A DNA stretch of 64,000 nucleotides from Acidobacteriota bacterium (GCA_003223325.1 QHYS01000057.1:62001-126000), one strand, 5' to 3'. Counted from the first letter of the stretch, positions 20,923 to 50,349 are shown. Translations and numbers: made by a program. Notes: generated by a model not told the origin, from the letters alone.

Positions 20923-23900
20923 TTGATCACAAGCGAGCGGCTCAGGTTATTTCTATATGCAAGTCTTTTCATCGTTGCCTTGGTTCGCCCTGGTGCGAAT
21001 TTGTGGGCACAATCAGCGACGACCGGGGCGCTGCGAGGGGCCGTCGTCGATCCCACCGGTGCCGCCGTTCCAGGCGTGATGGTCACTCTTAGCAACGTTA
21101 CGACGGGGCAAGAACAAATGGCCATGACCGGCGCAAATGGCCTCTACGGATTCTCGTTGCTTCCTCCCGGAACCTATCACGTGGTTTTTTCTGCGAGGGG
21201 ATTCAAGACCTCGGTGGCGATGTCCGTAGTCGTCAATGTCTCGGAGGCCCCTGAGTTGGATGCCCAGCTCGAGACCGGAGCAGCGGAAGAGCGCGTTACC
21301 TGCCAGTGCCAGCTCAGCCAGGCGGCGACGTCCTCTAGCGGCACGTTGGTAGACAGCAAGACCCTTACGGCGGTCCCTCTCACTACCCGCAATTTAACGC
21401 AAGTGCTATCGATGTCTTCCGGTTCCGCAGCCAGTGTGAATAATGCCGGATTGATCGGAGCGGGCTCCCAGGACGTAAACGTGAACGGCAGTATCGCGGT
21501 CGGTCTTTATACAGTAGATGGCGCGGCTTCCGCCAGCACCGTGCCAAACCCCGATACGATCTCCGAATTCAAGATTCAAACTTCGCAATACGATGCCGGC
21601 TACGGCACCAAGGTACCTAACACCAATCTAGTTACCCGCTCCGGTGGAAACGATTTCCACGGAGATGTCTGGGAATTCGTGCGCAACGATATTTTCAACG
21701 CCAATGCGTTTTTCCGGAATGCCGCCGGACAACCCAAAGCGACCCTGAAACAGAACCAGTTCGGCGGCACGTTGGGCGGACCCGTTAAGAAAGATAAGGT
21801 GCTCTTCTTTGGTTCTTATCAGGGGACCCGCCAAGTGAACGGCCTGGATCCTACGGGCTCCTTATCCACGGTTATTCTTCCTCCTCTGAGCGACGATCGC
21901 TCGGCGGCCACAATCGGTTCGCAGTTCTGTCCAGCGAATAAGCCTGCGAACGTGCGGTCCGCTTACTTGACCTTTGCGGGAGGAACGCAGGTGGCCTGTG
22001 ATGGCTCGAACATCAATCCCGTGGCCCTGAAGCTGCTCCAACTGAAGCTGCCTGACGGCAGCTATTTGATATCAACGCCTCAAACCGTTTTGTCAAGCGG
22101 CCTCGGCCTCTCCTCATACAGTCTTAAATCTACCTATGACGAGAACCAATACCTCGCGAACATTTCCTATGTCATTTCCAAAAAGCATACGCTCACCGGC
22201 CGGCTCTATTACGCCACGGCTCGCACGAATCGAGCCTTCGGGTCCGCGTTCCTGCGTCCTGCCGAGACGCCGCCGACTCCGGGCTTTCCGGTGATCCTCG
22301 ACGACACGAACGTCATCAGCAGCATACAACTCAATTCGGTATTGACACCCAACATGGCCAATGAAGCGCGCATGACTTTCACCAACAATCGATCCGACCC
22401 AATGGTCACCGGCCTGCCAACAACCGCCTCCATCGGCATGACGCCGGCCAACACCTTGGCGCCGTTTTTGCCGGACATCATCATGAAGGGACCGCTGGGA
22501 GATTTTCAGGCGGGGAATGTCTACAGTGATTTTCTCAACTATAGCAAGATCTATTCTTGGGCAGACACGTTCTCCTGGACTCACGGCAGGCATACGACTC
22601 GCACGGGAGTGTTTGCTCTAAGGGAGCCTTTGGAATCGTCCAACATCGCCCTCGCTCGAGGAAGACTGGCCTTTCAAAACTTCACGGACTTGTTGTTGGG
22701 AATGAGCGCGGCGCAAAACGGCAGTCCCCAGGGACGCAGCAATGTTCAATCCATTGAAGCCAATGAAGGCTTAGGGCCGACAGGTAACGTCATACTATTG
22801 CTGCGGTTCAACCATGTCGCCGCCTTCGTGGAGGACGACATAAAAGTCAGCGGGCGTCTTACGCTCAATCTGGGCCTGCGCTGGGAATACCTGCCATCTT
22901 CATTTGGCCGAACCGGGGACCTGGGCAATGCTTTCCCGTCGCTCTTACAAACCGTGCCCATCCCGCTTGCTTCTGGCACTTATGCCGGCCTGACTGTGCC
23001 GCCTGACTACAATCCCAACCAAATTAACCCCTATACAGGCCAGCCCTTCGGGCCGCCTCCTCCCGGGGTGGTCGTACGCCCCAACGATGGTTACTATCAG
23101 AATGCCGCTCGTTGGGATGCCTTCTCTCCTCGTTTCTCATTTGCCTGGCAACCCGGCAGCAAGCAAGGCCGCCTGGCCGTGCGCAGCGGCTACGGGTGGT
23201 TCTACCAGCCTCTCAGCGACAGGGGGAATGCCACAGGTACTCCATCGGAAAATATTGAGCCGCTCGCTCAACTGATCGGTAGTTCGGGAGCGAGCAATGG
23301 TGCGTCCACACTACAAAACCCATTCCCGCCCACCATGCTGGGGTTCACGCTCCGAACACCCACCTCACATCTGGACGACCGCACGATCGGACCGAACTTC
23401 CAAAACCCTAAGTTGCAGCAATGGAACCTGAACGTGCAGTACGCTTTCTCCCGTAATTTGAGTCTCGACCTCGGTTATGTGGGATCGCACGGCAACGATC
23501 TGTTTCTCCTTTATGGTTCGAACCAGCCGTTGCTGGCAAGTCCAGGCCACCCAGTAAACTGCGGCCTACCGAATACCGCCGCCGGGTTGGGCGTCACGCC
23601 CGCTATTTTTGCCATACTAGGTGTCGATCGATCGGGCTGCGTGACCACGAACACATCCGTCAATGCCGGGCTGCGCGTCCCGATCGTTGGCGACACGCCG
23701 ACAGGCTTGCTCGCGCACCAGTATCTCGGGGGCTCCTGGTATCACAGCGCGCAGGCCACTCTGCGGCAGCAGATCTCTCGCGGTTTGAGCTTTCAGTTTG
23801 CCTATACTTTTTCCAAGGCCGAAGGCAACACAACAGTTCTCAACGACCAGCGAAATCTTGCCTTAGACTGGGCGCCTACGAATTTCGATCGCAGGCACCG

Positions 23901-44466: not shown

Positions 44467-44799
44467 TCACGTGGTGGGCTGAGGATGGAGGACCAGATCA
44501 GCTAAGCTCAGCCCGACCAACTCTGACACACGCAACCCGCCGGCAAAGGCTAAGTGGAGCATCGCACGGTCCCGCAACCCGTCCCGGGAACTCGGGTCAG
44601 GAACATCCAGTAAGGCTTGAATTTCTTCACGATTGAGATAGCCGATGATCACCTCGTCGGTCTTCTTCACCGGGACGGCACGAATTCGGCGGGCTTGCTC
44701 AAGACACGACGGTAGGCGGTATTCCAAAAACCGGAAGAACGTCTTGATAGCGGCCAATCTTGCGGCAGATCGTCCCTGATCGCCGATGGACGAAACGTA
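44467..44799 (-). pseudogene. Tyrosine recombinase/integrase fragment
   Basis: The frame is open from about 44799 and encodes the end of a SAM-like core-binding domain (A-A-I-K-T-F-F-R-F-L-E-Y-R), then the start of the catalytic domain: L-N-R-E-E-I-Q-A-L-L-D, R-D-R-A-M-L-H-L-A-F-A-G-G-L-R-V-S-E-L with the first catalytic Arg. It stops at 44467, before the H-x-x-R and Tyr motifs, and lacks a proper N-terminus, so it is a remnant. Similar integrases occur in Tn554-like elements. Confidence 0.65.
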
Positions 44800-45665
44800 C
44801 TACTAAGCTGCAACGTTCGTACTCTTGCGACTAGATGATGTGTTATTCGAGACTGATGTTCACACGCACTTGTGACGGTCAAGCCGGTCGCCTTCCCGTG
44901 CGGTGGGTTACCATGATGGCCATTGAAAAGATAATTTCAAGAGCATCTAGGGGAGATGACACGCAGTTTGAATGCCACGTGGACAAAGAGATTTGGGTCG
45001 TGTCACTCCACTTCGACGCGGCGCTGATTGCTTCAAGAAGCTCTCGATGTCTTTACCGTAGTAAAGGAGGCGATCGCCATATCGGAGGCGATCACGGTAT
45101 GGGCTGGGAGTTTAGAAGCGATGAGAAGGGTAGGCATTGGAAAGTCGTAACCAATCCAGCGTTGGTTAATCTGCTCGACTGCCTTCATTTTGCATGTCTC
45201 CGAAAAGATGAAACCGAAAGTGCCGCGCCCCAAAGCAGAAGATCGCGACGGGAAGGTGAGCTTTCCACTTTGCCTATCGAAACGCTTGAGCCACAAAGCT
45301 TCCGCCAGCCGAATCGATGCGCATCTTACGCGGAGGGGTTCGGAAAGCTTTAGAGCTAGTGTTCTCCAAACCACCTTTCCCCGTGTCGCACCGATTCCAA
45401 CCTTCAACTCTCGCGAAATTTTCTTCCGAGTTTTTCATGTCGCTTCGCGACATCCACGAAGCATGAAAATGCGATCGAGATTGGCTTATGATTCGCTCGC
45501 CTGCGCAGGAAGAAGGCCGATCTTGCTTGGAGCATAAAGCCCGCTTCCGAGTTTGGCCTGGACATCGCTCCGAACCCCAAATTGTCGCCTGGCTTCCACG
45601 AGAGCACGCGGAGCAGATTGTTTCACCTTTCGATGTCCTCCGGCGCAGGGAGAAGGGAGAGAAGG
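44800..45665. other. Region upstream of the split IS110 gene, no recognised coding sequence
   Basis: Several overlapping frames on both strands (44835-45353 plus, 45033-45407 minus, 45190-45537 plus) have no family resemblance and mutually exclude each other. The last ~100 bases end in a purine-rich tract with GGGAGAAGGGAGAGAAGG before the transposase ATG at 45666. The left end and non-coding part of the IS110 element should lie here, but I cannot place its boundary. Confidence 0.35.
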
Positions 45666-45711
45666 ATGGAGAACATTCTCGCTTGCTGTGCCGGGTTAGA
45701 TGTGCACAAAG
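45666..45711 (+). pseudogene. IS110 transposase, 5' fragment
   Basis: Fifteen codons with the G-L-D-V-H-K motif that holds the first acidic catalytic residue, preceded by a purine-rich GAGAAGG ribosome site. The frame then runs into the inserted element. It belongs with the larger fragment at 49022-50215. Confidence 0.8.
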
Positions 45712-45719
45712 CTTGCGCT

Positions 45720-47773
45720 TCATATTGCACCTTGTCCCGATTTGATAGCGGTCGGTTTACGGCCGCCACGCCCTTTGATAATCGTGACACCCCGAAGTGG
45801 CTCATAGAAAGAATCGCAGCGGGGATTGCAATCGATACGCCGCAACAGACCGGACCGCGCCCACCCATGCAGGGTCGTTTCGGAGACTCCTAAGGTCTTG
45901 CTCATCTCTTTCGCCGTCAACAGGCCTTGTTCGCGCAACCGGTCGAACCGGCTCTTGAGGTGATAGACCGTACGAATATGCACGATCTTCCTTACCGTAA
46001 ACGGCTGGCTTTGCCAAGTCCGATGTCCCCGCTGATTGAGAATTTCCGCCACTTCACGATCACAGTGCTCGTTCAACAAAACGTCGACCTCCGCCACGAC
46101 CTCCGGCTTGTTTTTGCGAATCTGCGCCATGGGCAACGGTCGATCGACGGTCAGCGTCCGCGTAGCGCCTCCTCGCAAGCGTACGTGTACGGTGATGTTA
46201 TCAGCCTTAATCAGGGTCACGTCTTCGATGAGCAACCTTAGCATCCGTTTCCTCTCACGCGCCTCGAGTTCCGGATCATTCCAGATGCGCGGAAAATCAG
46301 TAGCGAGCGAGAGGACTTTCTGGCGCACCTCTTCCTCAGTCAAGCGGCGCTGCTGCTCGGTATGCCGCTCGTAGTCTTCCTGCGCCGCGGCGTGAGCGCG
46401 CAATTTCTCATTCCACTCGGCCTCCAGGGAGCCGGCCACGAGGCGATGGTCGGGATCGACGCTCATGTATCGCCGACGGGCTAACTCGGCCTCGTACCGT
46501 GCTCGCTCCACCTGTTGCCGACGCAGCGCGTCGGTTTCGGCACAACGCGCTTCCACTTCCTGTGCGACGGCGAGCGCCACCTCGAGTGTCAGCGGCTGTA
46601 CCAACTCGAGCAAGAGATCGCTCACCGCTCGATCCACAATGTTGCCCGCACACGCTGACATACTTTCGAGCCTCGGTGGATCGAGGCTTCTTGGCAGACG
46701 TAAGTGATTGCAATTTTTTCTTTTGCACTCCAGTAATGCACCCCCATGCGTTCCCCGCAGAGACCGCACAGCACGCGTCCCTGCAATAAAGCCGGTCCCT
46801 CTCGCGCCGGCCCCCATCTGCGCGTGCTGCTGAACGCCAAAGTATTTTCGGCCAGGCGCTTCTGATTCGCCTCAAATCGATCCCAACTGATGTAGCCCGG
46901 ATGCACGTCGCGGATCAGAAACTGCCATTCCTCCTGGGGCACTTTGAGTGAGACGGACTTTCCATCCGGCTTTCGGCGCCTGCGTGTGCGGCCATAGACG
47001 AAGGCGCCGGCATATCGGGGGTTGTGCAGAATTTGGACGATACGGGTGTGGTCGACCCGGCCCCAGTGCAGTTCGCCCTTCTGGGCTCCCTCGTGAATTC
47101 GCCGAGGAAACCGCAGATCTTCCTCGCGAAAATAGCGGACGGTCTGCATGGCCGAACCAGTGCGCTCAAAGGTGTCGAAGACCAATCGTATGGCGGACTG
47201 GACTTCCCGATCCGGATCGATCCCCATGCTTCCGTCCGGCAGGTAAACCAAACCAATCGGTGGTCTCATCTCGAGCTCGGCGCGGCGCGCTTTATTGAGT
47301 ACGCCGCCACGCATCCGCGCCTTCAGAAAATGCAGTTCCGCCTGGCTCAGTTCTCCCTTCAAACCGAGAAGAAGCTTGTCATTGAATGTCGCGGGATCGT
47401 AGAGGCCGTCCTCATCCAGGATCAAAGTGCCGGCGATTTCGCACAACTCCATCAGGCGGTGCCAATCCGCGCAGTTCCGCGCCAACCGGGAGACCTCCAG
47501 CCCCATGATGATCCCGGCCTTGCCGAGCGCCACTTCACTGACCAGTTGTGGGAATCCGTCGCGGCCAGCCGCGTGAGATGCGGTTTTACCGAGATCACAA
47601 TCAATCACATGGAGGTGCTCAACCGGCCAGCCGAGCGCCACCGCCCGCTCGCGCAGCGCGTACTGACGCTGCGTGCTCTCGGTGTTCTCCAACACCTGGC
47701 GAGGCGTCGACTGACGAATGTAGAGATACGCATCCCGCTCCAGATGGGCGTTCGTGACTTTCCGTTCAGGCAT
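45720..47773 (-). pseudogene. Large serine recombinase, split by a one-base deletion
   Basis: N-terminal half (ATG 47773): resolvase catalytic domain with Y-I-R-Q-S-T-P-R-Q (nucleophile Ser) and G-L-E-V-S-R-L-A-R-N; recombinase domain with I-L-H-N-P-R-Y-A-G-A-F-V-Y-G-R; zinc ribbon with C-G-L-C-G-E-R. After C-Q-R-V at about 46645 the frame is lost. Adding one base gives P-G-N-I-V-D-R-A-V-S-D-L-L-L in the next frame, followed by a coiled coil and a MerR/Xis-like helix-turn-helix (L-T-A-K-E-M-S-K-T-L-G-V-S-E-T-T-L-H-G-W). About 680 residues if repaired. ATG overlaps the upstream small gene. Read as inactive unless the indel is an error. Confidence 0.85.
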
Positions 47774-48044
47774 GCACGGAATCCTTTCCCCGATGGAGAA
47801 TCCACCCCGCCATCATCTGAACCAGTTCCCTGGAGACCTCCGAAGGAATCGGCGATCGGCCCGCAGGAGCTGGCGAAGGCCAAGAATCTAGCACCTGCCT
47901 TGAGGCACTGGCCCAAGCCAACATTCCATGGCGAAGCAAAACGGTAGGGCCTCGGGTTGCCCCGGACTGGTCCGCAGGGTCGATGAGGTAAGGACGCAAC
48001 GCTTCGTACGCTGCCGCTGCATCGCCGGGAATCGAAGACTTCAA
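47766..48044 (-). CDS. Small protein of the serine-recombinase element
   Basis: About 92 aa from TTG 48044, whose TTGA overlaps the stop of the helix-turn-helix gene; the frame also continues upstream, where it overlaps that gene. Visible: S-S-I-P-G-D-A-A-A-A-Y-E-A-L-R-P-Y, L-L-R-H-G-M-L-A-W and the end S-R-E-L-V-Q-M-M-A-G-W-I-L-H-R. Its stop overlaps the recombinase ATG by 8 bases, so translation is coupled on both sides. No family recognised; an accessory DNA-binding or directionality role is only a guess from position. Confidence 0.65.
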   Translation of the reverse strand: MKSSIPGDAAAAYEALRPYLIDPADQSGATRGPTVLLRHGMLAWASASRQVLDSWPSPAPAGRSPIPSEVSRELVQMMAGWILHRGKDSVHA

Positions 48045-48517
48045 GTTTGCTGACGCGGTTTTTTTTTGCGCCGCGCCAGAGCTCGCTCGAGACTGCGTCT
48101 GTGGACGGTAATGGCAAAACGTTCTTGAATAGCTTTCACGCACTGAACGGTGGTGAGCTGGCGTTCTGACTCCCGCAAACTGACCACGTAGTCCAGAACT
48201 TCGGCGCTCAGCTTGTGTCCACCCTTCGGCCCCCGCCGAGCCGGCAATAGGCCGGCCAGTCCAGATCGTTGGAAAGACGCTTGGGCCTGATAAAACGTGG
48301 GGCGCGAAACGCCAAAAGCGGCAGCGGCCTCGAGAATCGACATCTGTTCGGCAGTGTGGCGTCGCAGCATCTCGTAGCGGGCCTGCAGAAGATCGCGGGG
48401 ATCGAAGAAGAGGTTCTGTTGGAACAGGGGATCGGTCACGGTGTCCGCATGAGGATTGAGCGTGCCAGTCTGTTTCAGTTCTTCGGCCTTCTGGTCGCGC
48501 GGGCTGCGTTTGGGCAT
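48041..48517 (-). CDS. Helix-turn-helix protein of the serine-recombinase element
   Basis: From ATG 48517 (M-P-K-R-S-P-R-D-Q) the product is 158 aa. A helix-turn-helix like those of IS630/IS481 transposase N-termini is clear: S-I-L-E-A-A-A-A-F-G-V-S-R-P-T-F-Y-Q near residues 62-79, then G-L-A-G-L-L-P-A-R-R-G-P-K-G-G-H-K. A second helical segment with T-V-Q-C-V-K-A-I-Q-E-R-F follows, and the tail is very basic (R-R-K-K-K-P-R). There is no catalytic domain, so it is probably a DNA-binding partner. The upstream part of the open frame (to 48820) lacks protein character. Confidence 0.75.
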   Translation of the reverse strand: MPKRSPRDQKAEELKQTGTLNPHADTVTDPLFQQNLFFDPRDLLQARYEMLRRHTAEQMSILEAAAAFGVSRPTFYQAQASFQRSGLAGLLPARRGPKGGHKLSAEVLDYVVSLRESERQLTTVQCVKAIQERFAITVHRRSLERALARRKKKPRQQT

Positions 48518-48704
48518 CTGGATGGTGTTCGCTATGTAATAATAATTAAGCCTCACATAGAATGTCAAGCAAAATCGAAAGCCCCAGGATCCTGGTGCAT
48601 GTTGGCGATATACAGAGGAAGTTAAGAGGAGTCCCTGATCCGCGTGGAAGCGCCCCTCCGACCCATGCGGCGGATTTATTTTGACATATGAGGCGTAATT
48701 ACAT

Positions 48705-48947
48705 TTACACATTTGGATGACTCCCTTCCCCCCGCTTCTGCCGATCCAGCCCCTCCCGCAGCTCCAGAAGATCATCCACGCGGAATGCAGAACGACCGGC
48801 GGAAATTCGGGTGAATGCATCGATCGGAAACAGGTCCGTGATATTGACTAGAAAGGACTTCAGTCGCCCGTCGGGGCCGTAGTAAAAAACACGGTCCTCT
48901 CCCCAACTGAGGTGTCGGGCGACCATTTCATATTCATTCCCCACCAA
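48705..48947 (-). CDS. DUF5372-like protein of the serine-recombinase element, 5' end unclear
   Basis: The 80-residue stretch matches my memory of DUF5372: W-G-E-D-R-V-F-Y-Y-G-P-D-G-R-L, I-T-D-L-F-P-I-D and S-A-G-R-S-A-F-R-V-D-D-L-L-E-L. In the same frame further upstream lies R-F-R-I-T-H-P-F-H-P, the expected family start, but no ATG or GTG precedes it. The only upstream ATGs (49021 at the element end, 48997) are in another frame, suggesting one more indel. GTG 48947 is the first in-frame start. Function unknown; the family is found beside recombinase genes. Confidence 0.6.
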   Translation of the reverse strand: MVGNEYEMVARHLSWGEDRVFYYGPDGRLKSFLVNITDLFPIDAFTRISAGRSAFRVDDLLELREGLDRQKRGEGSHPNV

Positions 48948-49021
48948 CGGATGAAAGGGATGGGTGATGCGGAATCGACCGGCGGATTTACCGGCATGGC
49001 CTGTAGTTGCTGATATTCCAT

Positions 49022-50215
49022 AAAGAGTCAGTCGAAGCCTGTGTGCGGCAAATCGAACCGAGCGGTCGCGTGCATAGTGAGACTCGCCACTGGGGAACGA
49101 TGACTCGAGACCTTGTGGCGATGGCTGATTGGCTGGCGGCCGAAGGAGTTAGGAATGTAGCCATGGAGTCCACCGGAGTGTTTTGGAAGCCGATTTTCAA
49201 CATCTTGGAAAACCGCTTCACGGTGTTGCTGGTGAATGCGCGCCATCTCAAACAGGTGCCGGGGCGCAAGAGTGACGTTCGGGATTGCCAATGGATTGCG
49301 CAATTGCTGCAATGTGGACTGCTGAAGGGCAGCTTCATTCCCCCGCGTCCGCAGCGCGAGTTGCGGGACCTCACGCGACACCGGACCCAGTTGGTGGAAG
49401 AAAAGACGCGCACTATCACTCGAATTCAAAAAGTCCTGGAAGATGCCAATATCAAGCTGGCCTCGGTGGCCACCGATGTAATGGGCGTTTCCGGCCGGGC
49501 CATGATTCAACGATTGATGGAAGGAGAGACCGACCCCCACAAGCTCGCGGATCTGGCGCAGCGCCAATTACGCGGGAAGATTCCCGAGCTGGAGAAAGCC
49601 CTGGAGGGGAAGCTGACCGATCATCATCGCTTCTTGCTGAAGCTGCTCTGGAAAGAACTAGCCCAACAGGAGGAGTTGATCGCCGAGCTGGACGCCAAAA
49701 TCGAGGAGCACACACGCCCTTTCGCGGCTGAGATCGGCCGCCTAGACGCCATCCCCGGGGTCGATCAGCGCGTGGCCCAGGTCCTGCTGGCTGAAGTGGG
49801 AGCCGACATCAAACCGTTCCCGAGCGATCAGCATTTATCTTCGTGGGCGGGGATGTGTCCGGGCAATGAAGAAAGCGCCGGGAAGCGGAGAAGAAGACGC
49901 ATCACGCCGGGCAACCGCTGGCTTAAGAAAACCTTAGCACAAGCGGCTTGGGCCGCGAGTCGCACAAAGAACACCTACTTGGCTACCCAGTATCGCCGCG
50001 TGGCGGGTCACCGTGGGAGGAAGCGCGCCCTGATTGCCGTGGGCCATTCGATGCTGGTGATTTTCTACCACATGATGAGCTCAGGGGCGACCTACGCCAA
50101 CTTAGGCGGCGATTTTTTCGACCGCCTCGAACCGGAGCGTCTGACCCGTTATTACGTCAAGCGCCTGGAACGCCTCGGCCACAAGGTCACGCTCGAAACC
50201 AACATTGCCGCCTGA
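49022..50215 (+). pseudogene. IS110 transposase, main 3' fragment
   Basis: Continues from codon 15 of the 45666 fragment. It retains A-M-E-S-T-G-V-F-W-K-P (catalytic Glu), D-V-R-D-C-Q-W-I-A-Q-L-L (catalytic Asp pair), a coiled-coil linker and the C-terminal Transposase_20 domain with I-P-G-V-D-Q-R-V-A, W-A-G-M-C-P-G and E-S-A-G-K (the reactive Ser of that half), ending at 50215. An open frame begins at TTG 49007 inside the inserted element, but the protein would lack the first DEDD Asp and so should be inactive on its own. Confidence 0.85.
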
Positions 50216-50349
50216 CCTGAACAAAATTTTCGGAGCAGAACTTAGTAGTGATTCATTGACATGATTCCTTTTTCGGTATACACCTTTGGAAATCGATTCG
50301 GAATTATTCGGGCAAACGATTCTCCTAGCAGTGTTTTCTGATGCCTGTT

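Follow-up and report, generated by a model that had tools for sequence, protein, structure and literature searches.

A compact large serine recombinase element in an IS110 transposase gene and its relatives in transposase genes of other mobile elements

The 64,000-nucleotide stretch analyzed here comes from an Acidobacteriota bacterium (QHYS01000057.1, 62001-126000; hereafter the window) and carries an IS110 transposase gene that is interrupted at codon 15 by a 3314-bp element encoding a large serine recombinase (LSR). Relatives of this element occupy transposase genes of several unrelated insertion sequence (IS) families. We consider it very probable that they are LSR-driven compact transposons specialized as parasites of other mobile elements. 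The ends, the crossover core, the target rule and near-identical copies in different targets were observed directly.

Ends and crossover core

An earlier note, made from the sequence alone, had proposed that a serine recombinase element jumped into the IS110 gene at codon 15. The AAAG repeat at the junctions, the IS110 domain matches and an empty site all bear this out. The features that define the insertion are listed below.

45435-50239 (+), interrupted IS110 copy including the insert; approximate extent, from where DNA homology to the genome's other IS110 copies stops
45666-45710 (+), IS110 transposase codons 1-15 (MENILACCAGLDVHK), left part of the interrupted host gene; frame reading
49022-50215 (+), remaining 397 codons of the IS110 transposase, right part of the host gene; NCBIfam NF033542, Pfam PF01548/PF02371
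45708-49021 (-), whole element, 3314 bp (one AA core copy plus 3312 unique bp); empty site L008 and copy L021
45708-45709 (.), AA crossover core, left copy (codon positions 1-2 of the interrupted Lys codon); AA shared by both junctions in 34/34 distinct sites
49022-49023 (.), AA crossover core, right copy; same basis as the left copy
45719-45731 (+), LSR-side conserved end motif TTCAYAYTGCACC, including the LSR stop codon; adjoins the LSR stop in nearly all family members
49003-49021 (+), DUF5372-side conserved end motif (GCAGTTGNNGACTT-like), adjoining the right core; alignment of 38 right ends
49024-49036 (+), right half of the attB target motif, AGAGTCAGTCGAA, with Glu codon GAA at +11 to +13 from the core; alignment of 34 target sites

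The IS110 protein picks up again as E-S-V-E-A-C-V-R at 49025, and AAAG is common to 45708-45711 and 49022-49025, a spacing of exactly 3314 bp. The right part matched the NCBIfam IS110 model (E = 5e-78) and both Pfam IS110 domains; an Rfam search of the IS110 region found no known RNA. A second IS110 copy in the same genome (L008, at the end of contig C112) is uninterrupted at codon 15. It matches window positions 45435-45709 at 88% DNA identity and runs straight into 49019-49474 at 94%. The two matching stretches overlap by only 5 bp, and the junction reads ...GTGCACAAGGAGTCGG.... L008 is a direct empty site for the 3314-bp element, and because it is continuous across the junction, the IS110 join is not due to chance. 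It also sets the left limit of the IS110 copy; the right limit comes from copies L009, L010 and L014.

The same element is present in another Acidobacterium (L021, QHYI01000011.1) at 86% DNA identity over 3.35 kb, with an intact LSR of 694 aa. There it lies in a different gene, which from its sequence we read as IS21 istA (DR|KGKVES). Homology with the window stops at the same two points although the host gene differs, so these are true ends of a mobile unit. Copies in Sinorhizobium fredii NGR234 are 99.9-100% identical over 3.32-3.33 kb and lie in an ISNCY gene and in two kinds of IS21 gene. Homology among them ceases at the element ends, and their alignment fixes the core as AA. Copies in S. 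medicae, Microvirga sp. VF16, Caballeronia and Burkholderia savannae were compared in this way as well.

Altogether, 38 copies from Acidobacteriota and Proteobacteria could be delimited at both ends, representing 34 distinct sites; in several others the flank was too short or rearranged to call. The ends of multi-copy elements were set by alignment. The unit measures 3248-3392 bp across the 38 copies, and its conserved end arms are GCAGTTGNNGACTT (DUF5372 side) and TTCAYAYTGCACC (LSR side). AA is the core at each of the 34 distinct sites, and the junctions share nothing beyond it. AAAG and AG were ruled out as the core because sites such as GACAA|CGC and TACAA|GCG have only AA in common. The AAAG repeat that the earlier note described is thus real, but the exact core is the AA inside it. 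In one S. medicae copy (L157), the flanking core and the initial bases of the C-end are missing.

The earlier note had suggested looking for an intact IS110 copy joining at the same codon and for shared outer ends in other carriers of the same genes. The former is present as L008 and the latter in L021 and the 38 delimited copies. The findings it said would refute the insertion, homology continuing past the ends or IS110 relatives that do not join here, were not encountered.

Target sites in genes of other mobile elements

Every one of the 34 distinct sites is inside a transposase or IS66 tnpB gene of another mobile element. The host genes belong to IS21 (22 sites), ISNCY (4), IS3 (4), IS110 (1), IS66 tnpB (1), IS4 (1) and an ISNCY/IS3 chimera (1). 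Assignments to IS110, ISNCY, IS3, IS21, IS66 TnpB and IS4 were tested against NCBIfam or Pfam, using representative pieces taken from one flank of the insert, and the remaining IS21, ISNCY and IS3 assignments were made by reading translated flanks. On the 294-position NCBIfam IS21 model, left pieces stop at position 226 and one right piece begins at 227. The earlier note, which treated a single insertion, was correct about that site and missed the insertion rule that runs through the family. In one case (L053; G014:C598, 1-5001), the element has the left part of an ISNCY on one side and the right part of an IS3 on the other, and the ISNCY piece is in turn preceded by, and fused to, the left part of an IS3. 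This arrangement could reflect recombination between occupied sites, or misassembly.

The core supplies positions 1 and 2 of a Lys or Asn codon, except in the IS4 case, where it falls inside a Glu codon. A Glu codon (GAR) follows at +11 to +13 from the core in 32/34 sites. In the DDE transposases that are hit (IS21, ISNCY, IS3), we take the Glu of the resulting K/N-(G/A)-x-x-E motif to be the third catalytic residue. IS110 and IS66 TnpB are not DDE enzymes, yet their sites (HKESVE and YKRLEE) have GAR at the same distance from the core. This argues that the LSR reads DNA rather than following host-gene homology.

We also examined 14 further LSR copies from plasmid regions outside the set behind the rule. 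The C-end was found in 13 of them, and AA lay 11 bp before the end motif in 13/13. Read by eye in that phase, the flanks were IS21 transposase or IS66 TnpB in all 13, including one on a Rhodococcus plasmid. The fourteenth copy is flanked by an annotated transposase and istB. In addition, a weight matrix built from ten acidobacterial sites was scanned over the unrelated 536-kb plasmid pNGR234a, with matches identified by eye. IS21 transposases took ranks 1-4 among 53,898 AA sites, and the next dozen ranks held further transposases and occupied sites mixed with non-transposase sites. The motif is enriched in transposases but also admits other sites. Predicted vacant targets in pNGR234a (NC_000914.2) are the uninterrupted, high-scoring IS21/ISNCY transposase genes at positions 23517, 190801, 373863, 161022 and 32238.

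In the LSR tree, the target label follows the clade. The clade with the rule described above (clade E, 17 rows) forms one side of a branch with support 100/100. The window copy has the features of this clade (four genes, both end motifs, AA core and a K/N-x-x-x-E target), with a frameshifted LSR. More distant LSR elements use other sites, again in mobile-element genes. One sister clade sits at the IstB P-loop (GP[P/S]-G-x-G-K; L180, L181, L103) and another at an IS3-type YN..RPH motif (L183-L188). Sister elements also lie in group II intron-type reverse transcriptases (RTs), at GIP (L057, L100) or DADIR (L058, L059), and in genes for IS66 TnpB (L102) and the IS66 transposase (L083). Pfam confirmed IstB, rve, RVT_1, TnpB_IS66 and DDE_Tnp_IS66 on representatives of the sister sites. 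The L057 piece gave no significant Pfam match, and the GIP type rests on sequence reading; in the flanks of L060, L081 and L104 no gene could be read.

We lean, with less assurance than for clade E itself, towards a wider reading in which these form an LSR-transposon superfamily, each clade using DNA that encodes one invariant mobile-element protein motif. Its members would be dedicated hyperparasites and natural transposon silencers. The proposed motifs would be the DDE catalytic Glu and IS66 TnpB WYK/RLEEG for clade E and, for the others, the IstB P-loop, IstB S-x-R-Y-E, the IS3-type YN..RPH and group II intron-type RT motifs.

Gene content, relatives and known systems

All genes of the element are on the minus strand. 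In the window copy they are as follows (ORF, open reading frame; HTH, helix-turn-helix).

45720-46817 (-), ORF with the LSR C-terminal part (homology from about 46650 to 45720) and a C-terminal HTH_17-like region; HTH_17 match below the curated cut-off
46622-47773 (-), LSR N-terminal part with Resolvase, Recombinase and zinc-ribbon domains; PF00239, PF07508, PF13408
47766-48143 (-), small conserved ORF that overlaps the start of the LSR, its own start uncertain; homologues in L021, L107, L111 and L114
48041-48517 (-), HTH protein, 158 aa, HTH_28/HTH_32; Pfam and NCBIfam matches
48705-49019 (-), DUF5372 (Y4bD/Y4pK family) protein, start uncertain; PF17342, E = 3.5e-21, and alignment

Compared with the intact L021 gene, the two LSR ORFs are one gene split by a 1-base deletion near 46648. 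A programmed frameshift was ruled out, as no slippery sequence was visible by eye and the L021 frame is intact. The window copy, with its LSR frameshifted, has probably lost its activity. The earlier note was right about the gap of 8 bases between LSR and left end (the LSR stop codon is 8 bp inside it), but overlooked that the LSR is a single frameshifted gene. The element's genes lie, as it said, on the minus strand; a further conserved small ORF is present at 47766-48143.

The LSR has its catalytic Resolvase domain first, followed by the Recombinase and zinc-ribbon domains. The catalytic serine/arginine motifs are conserved: YVRQS and EVSRLAR are invariant in the LSR alignment, with YIRQS in the window copy. 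Neither Pfam nor NCBIfam matched the small ORF. The HTH protein is similar to the DNA-binding region of IS481/IS630/ISNCY transposases but lacks a DDE domain. Its AlphaFold model, built from two sequences only, is all-helical with low to moderate confidence (pLDDT 66), and its best match in the PDB, the TnsB transposase, was not significant (E = 0.056). The model of the DUF5372 protein (pLDDT 49, also from two sequences only) is too weak to inform. Outside the element, a tyrosine-recombinase-like fragment was read by eye at 44467-44757 (-) in the window, and the L021 copy is followed by three tyrosine-recombinase-like ORFs (L021:3601-6717, also by eye).

At E <= 0.001, 28/89 genomes of the window's family contain LSR relatives, many of which are distant; at E <= 1e-60, such relatives occur in 20/396 genomes of the phylum. 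LSR homologues were found in 386 plasmid records, mainly from rhizobia, and family members occur in Acidobacteriota, Proteobacteria and Actinomycetota. None of 50,697 phage records contained a homologue, and viral contigs (IMG/VR) contained almost none: only two distant LSR matches and one DUF5372 fragment turned up, and the DUF5372 contig, L191, was dropped because it appears chimeric. For this reason, and with four genes only in the element, we do not regard the LSR as a prophage or phage integrase.

Several relatives show further rearrangements. Two copies in Microvirga lotononidis (NZ_CP141049.1; L175, L176) lie in different IS21 genes and have one LSR frameshift in common, near residue 415, which looks like mobilization in trans of an already broken copy. 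In S. medicae NZ_CP140899.1 (L117:3253-3993), the HTH coding sequence is annotated as longer, up to the LSR start, and HTH and small ORF appear fused. In P. phymatum pBPHY02 (L112) and CP140952.1, nesting reaches a third level, the element itself being interrupted by other insertion sequences (an IS4 family transposase and IS5-like ISRm4-1).

NCBI names for the element genes are limited to DUF5372 / Y4bD-Y4pK family, helix-turn-helix, hypothetical, and recombinase family protein. The NGR234 cluster, which we take to be y4bA-D / y4pH-K, has homologous genes in the same order (recombinase family, small ORF, HTH, DUF5372) with the same end motifs and core. Its LSR is 55% identical to that of L021, and a homologue at the DUF5372 position carries the NCBI name Y4bD/Y4pK. 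This four-gene cluster is a member of the same family, known previously as annotated genes only.

TndX and TnpX use a 2-bp core, as is the case here. The element also resembles the TndX-like, multi-targeting LSRs (Cp36; Durrant et al. 2022, PMC10083194) in that one LSR acts at many genomic sites. According to that paper, most members of the TndX-like clade have DUF4368; neither part of the window LSR gave a Pfam match to it. The main-text passages searched there do not report a preference for transposase motifs.

Group II introns offer another likeness, the use of dispensable mobile DNA as a landing site. Some prefer other mobile elements and move by RNA-guided retrohoming, whereas the present element apparently relies on protein-DNA recognition of a motif common to unrelated transposases. 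Like IS607, it is a small transposon moved by a serine recombinase. The DNA-binding domain of IS607 TnpA is N-terminal, and TnpA is paired with TnpB; the present recombinase is about 694 aa with its catalytic domain first, and there is no IS607-type TnpB. IS607 is described as lacking terminal inverted repeats and target duplication (PMC6188088). The enzyme class, multi-targeting LSRs (PMC10083194) and the genes as database entries are already known. We found no prior description of the element, its ends or a rule based on transposase active-site codons in the open-access literature, which is weak evidence of absence. The family is apparently widespread but undescribed.

Proposed mechanism, alternatives and significance

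By analogy with characterized LSRs, the element's own recombinase would free it in circular form, with attP created where its two ends join (about GCAGTTGNNGACTTNNNNN-AA-NNNTTAYGCTTCATACTGCACC); for NGR234, the predicted circular junction is GGACTTGAAAG-AA-GGAGCGGACATC. The LSR would pair attP with an attB-like target, about CCGCRNGAC-AA-RGSNAARGTSGAR, cut both strands at the AA dinucleotide and integrate the element with no duplication beyond the 2-bp core. In DDE transposases, the recognized half-site would be the DNA encoding K/N-(G/A)-x-x-E. On this view the element lands antisense inside transposase genes of several unrelated families and breaks them; IS66 tnpB and IS110 genes, whose proteins are not DDE enzymes, have a similar DNA motif. 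Host ISs would serve as multi-copy, dispensable, travelling landing sites, and the HTH protein, DUF5372 protein or small ORF could act as directionality factor or regulator.

Some points weigh against this reading. For single-copy elements, the AA taken as the right junction was the one that keeps the reading frame. Two sites lack GAR at +11, one in IS4 and one in an IS21 gene with a shorter motif. IS21 accounts for 22/34 sites, and this shared ancestry inflates the information content of the target logo, about 24 bits outside the core. Circle formation, strand exchange and the roles of the HTH, DUF5372 and small ORF products are inferred. Finally, the weight matrix gave matches of intermediate score outside transposases, so selection against other insertions probably contributes to the observed distribution. 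Those matches, and the existence of multi-targeting LSRs (PMC10083194), would suit an LSR of loose specificity whose insertions are seen in IS genes because these are dispensable and abundant, others having been removed by selection. We think this unlikely, though it is the strongest competitor. Dispensability alone would not predict one fixed codon, whereas codon phase and motif are the same across IS21, ISNCY, IS3, IS110 and IS66 TnpB, the Glu codon keeps its distance in nearly all sites, and sister clades have other sharply defined sites.

The remaining alternatives have far less in their favor. Every copy is in an IS gene, as it would be after a single insertion into an IS followed by travel as its passenger; this is contradicted by the NGR234 copies, near-identical elements in different IS families of one strain with homology that stops at the element ends, and we give it hardly any credence. 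Slightly less improbable, but still very doubtful, is an intervening element of the skin or fdxN kind, excised under certain conditions to reactivate the transposase. Its precise removal would restore the frame, and the best NCBIfam match of the LSR is XisF, at 79.5 bits far below the cut-off of 375. However, the targets vary, there are several copies per genome without a fixed host gene, and the window LSR is broken. The fragmented assembly (377 contigs) might suggest a chimeric contig, but the same ends recur in an independent genome (L021) and in complete plasmids, and an artefact can practically be dismissed.

Specialized parasitism of other mobile elements therefore remains our preferred explanation. 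The targeting rule would amount to reading DNA that other transposases cannot easily change, as it encodes their active site. The family offers a concrete instance of mobile elements that parasitize other parasites, and a possible brake on IS activity. It also provides LSRs whose predicted attP, attB and core can be tested directly and which may be useful for DNA integration.

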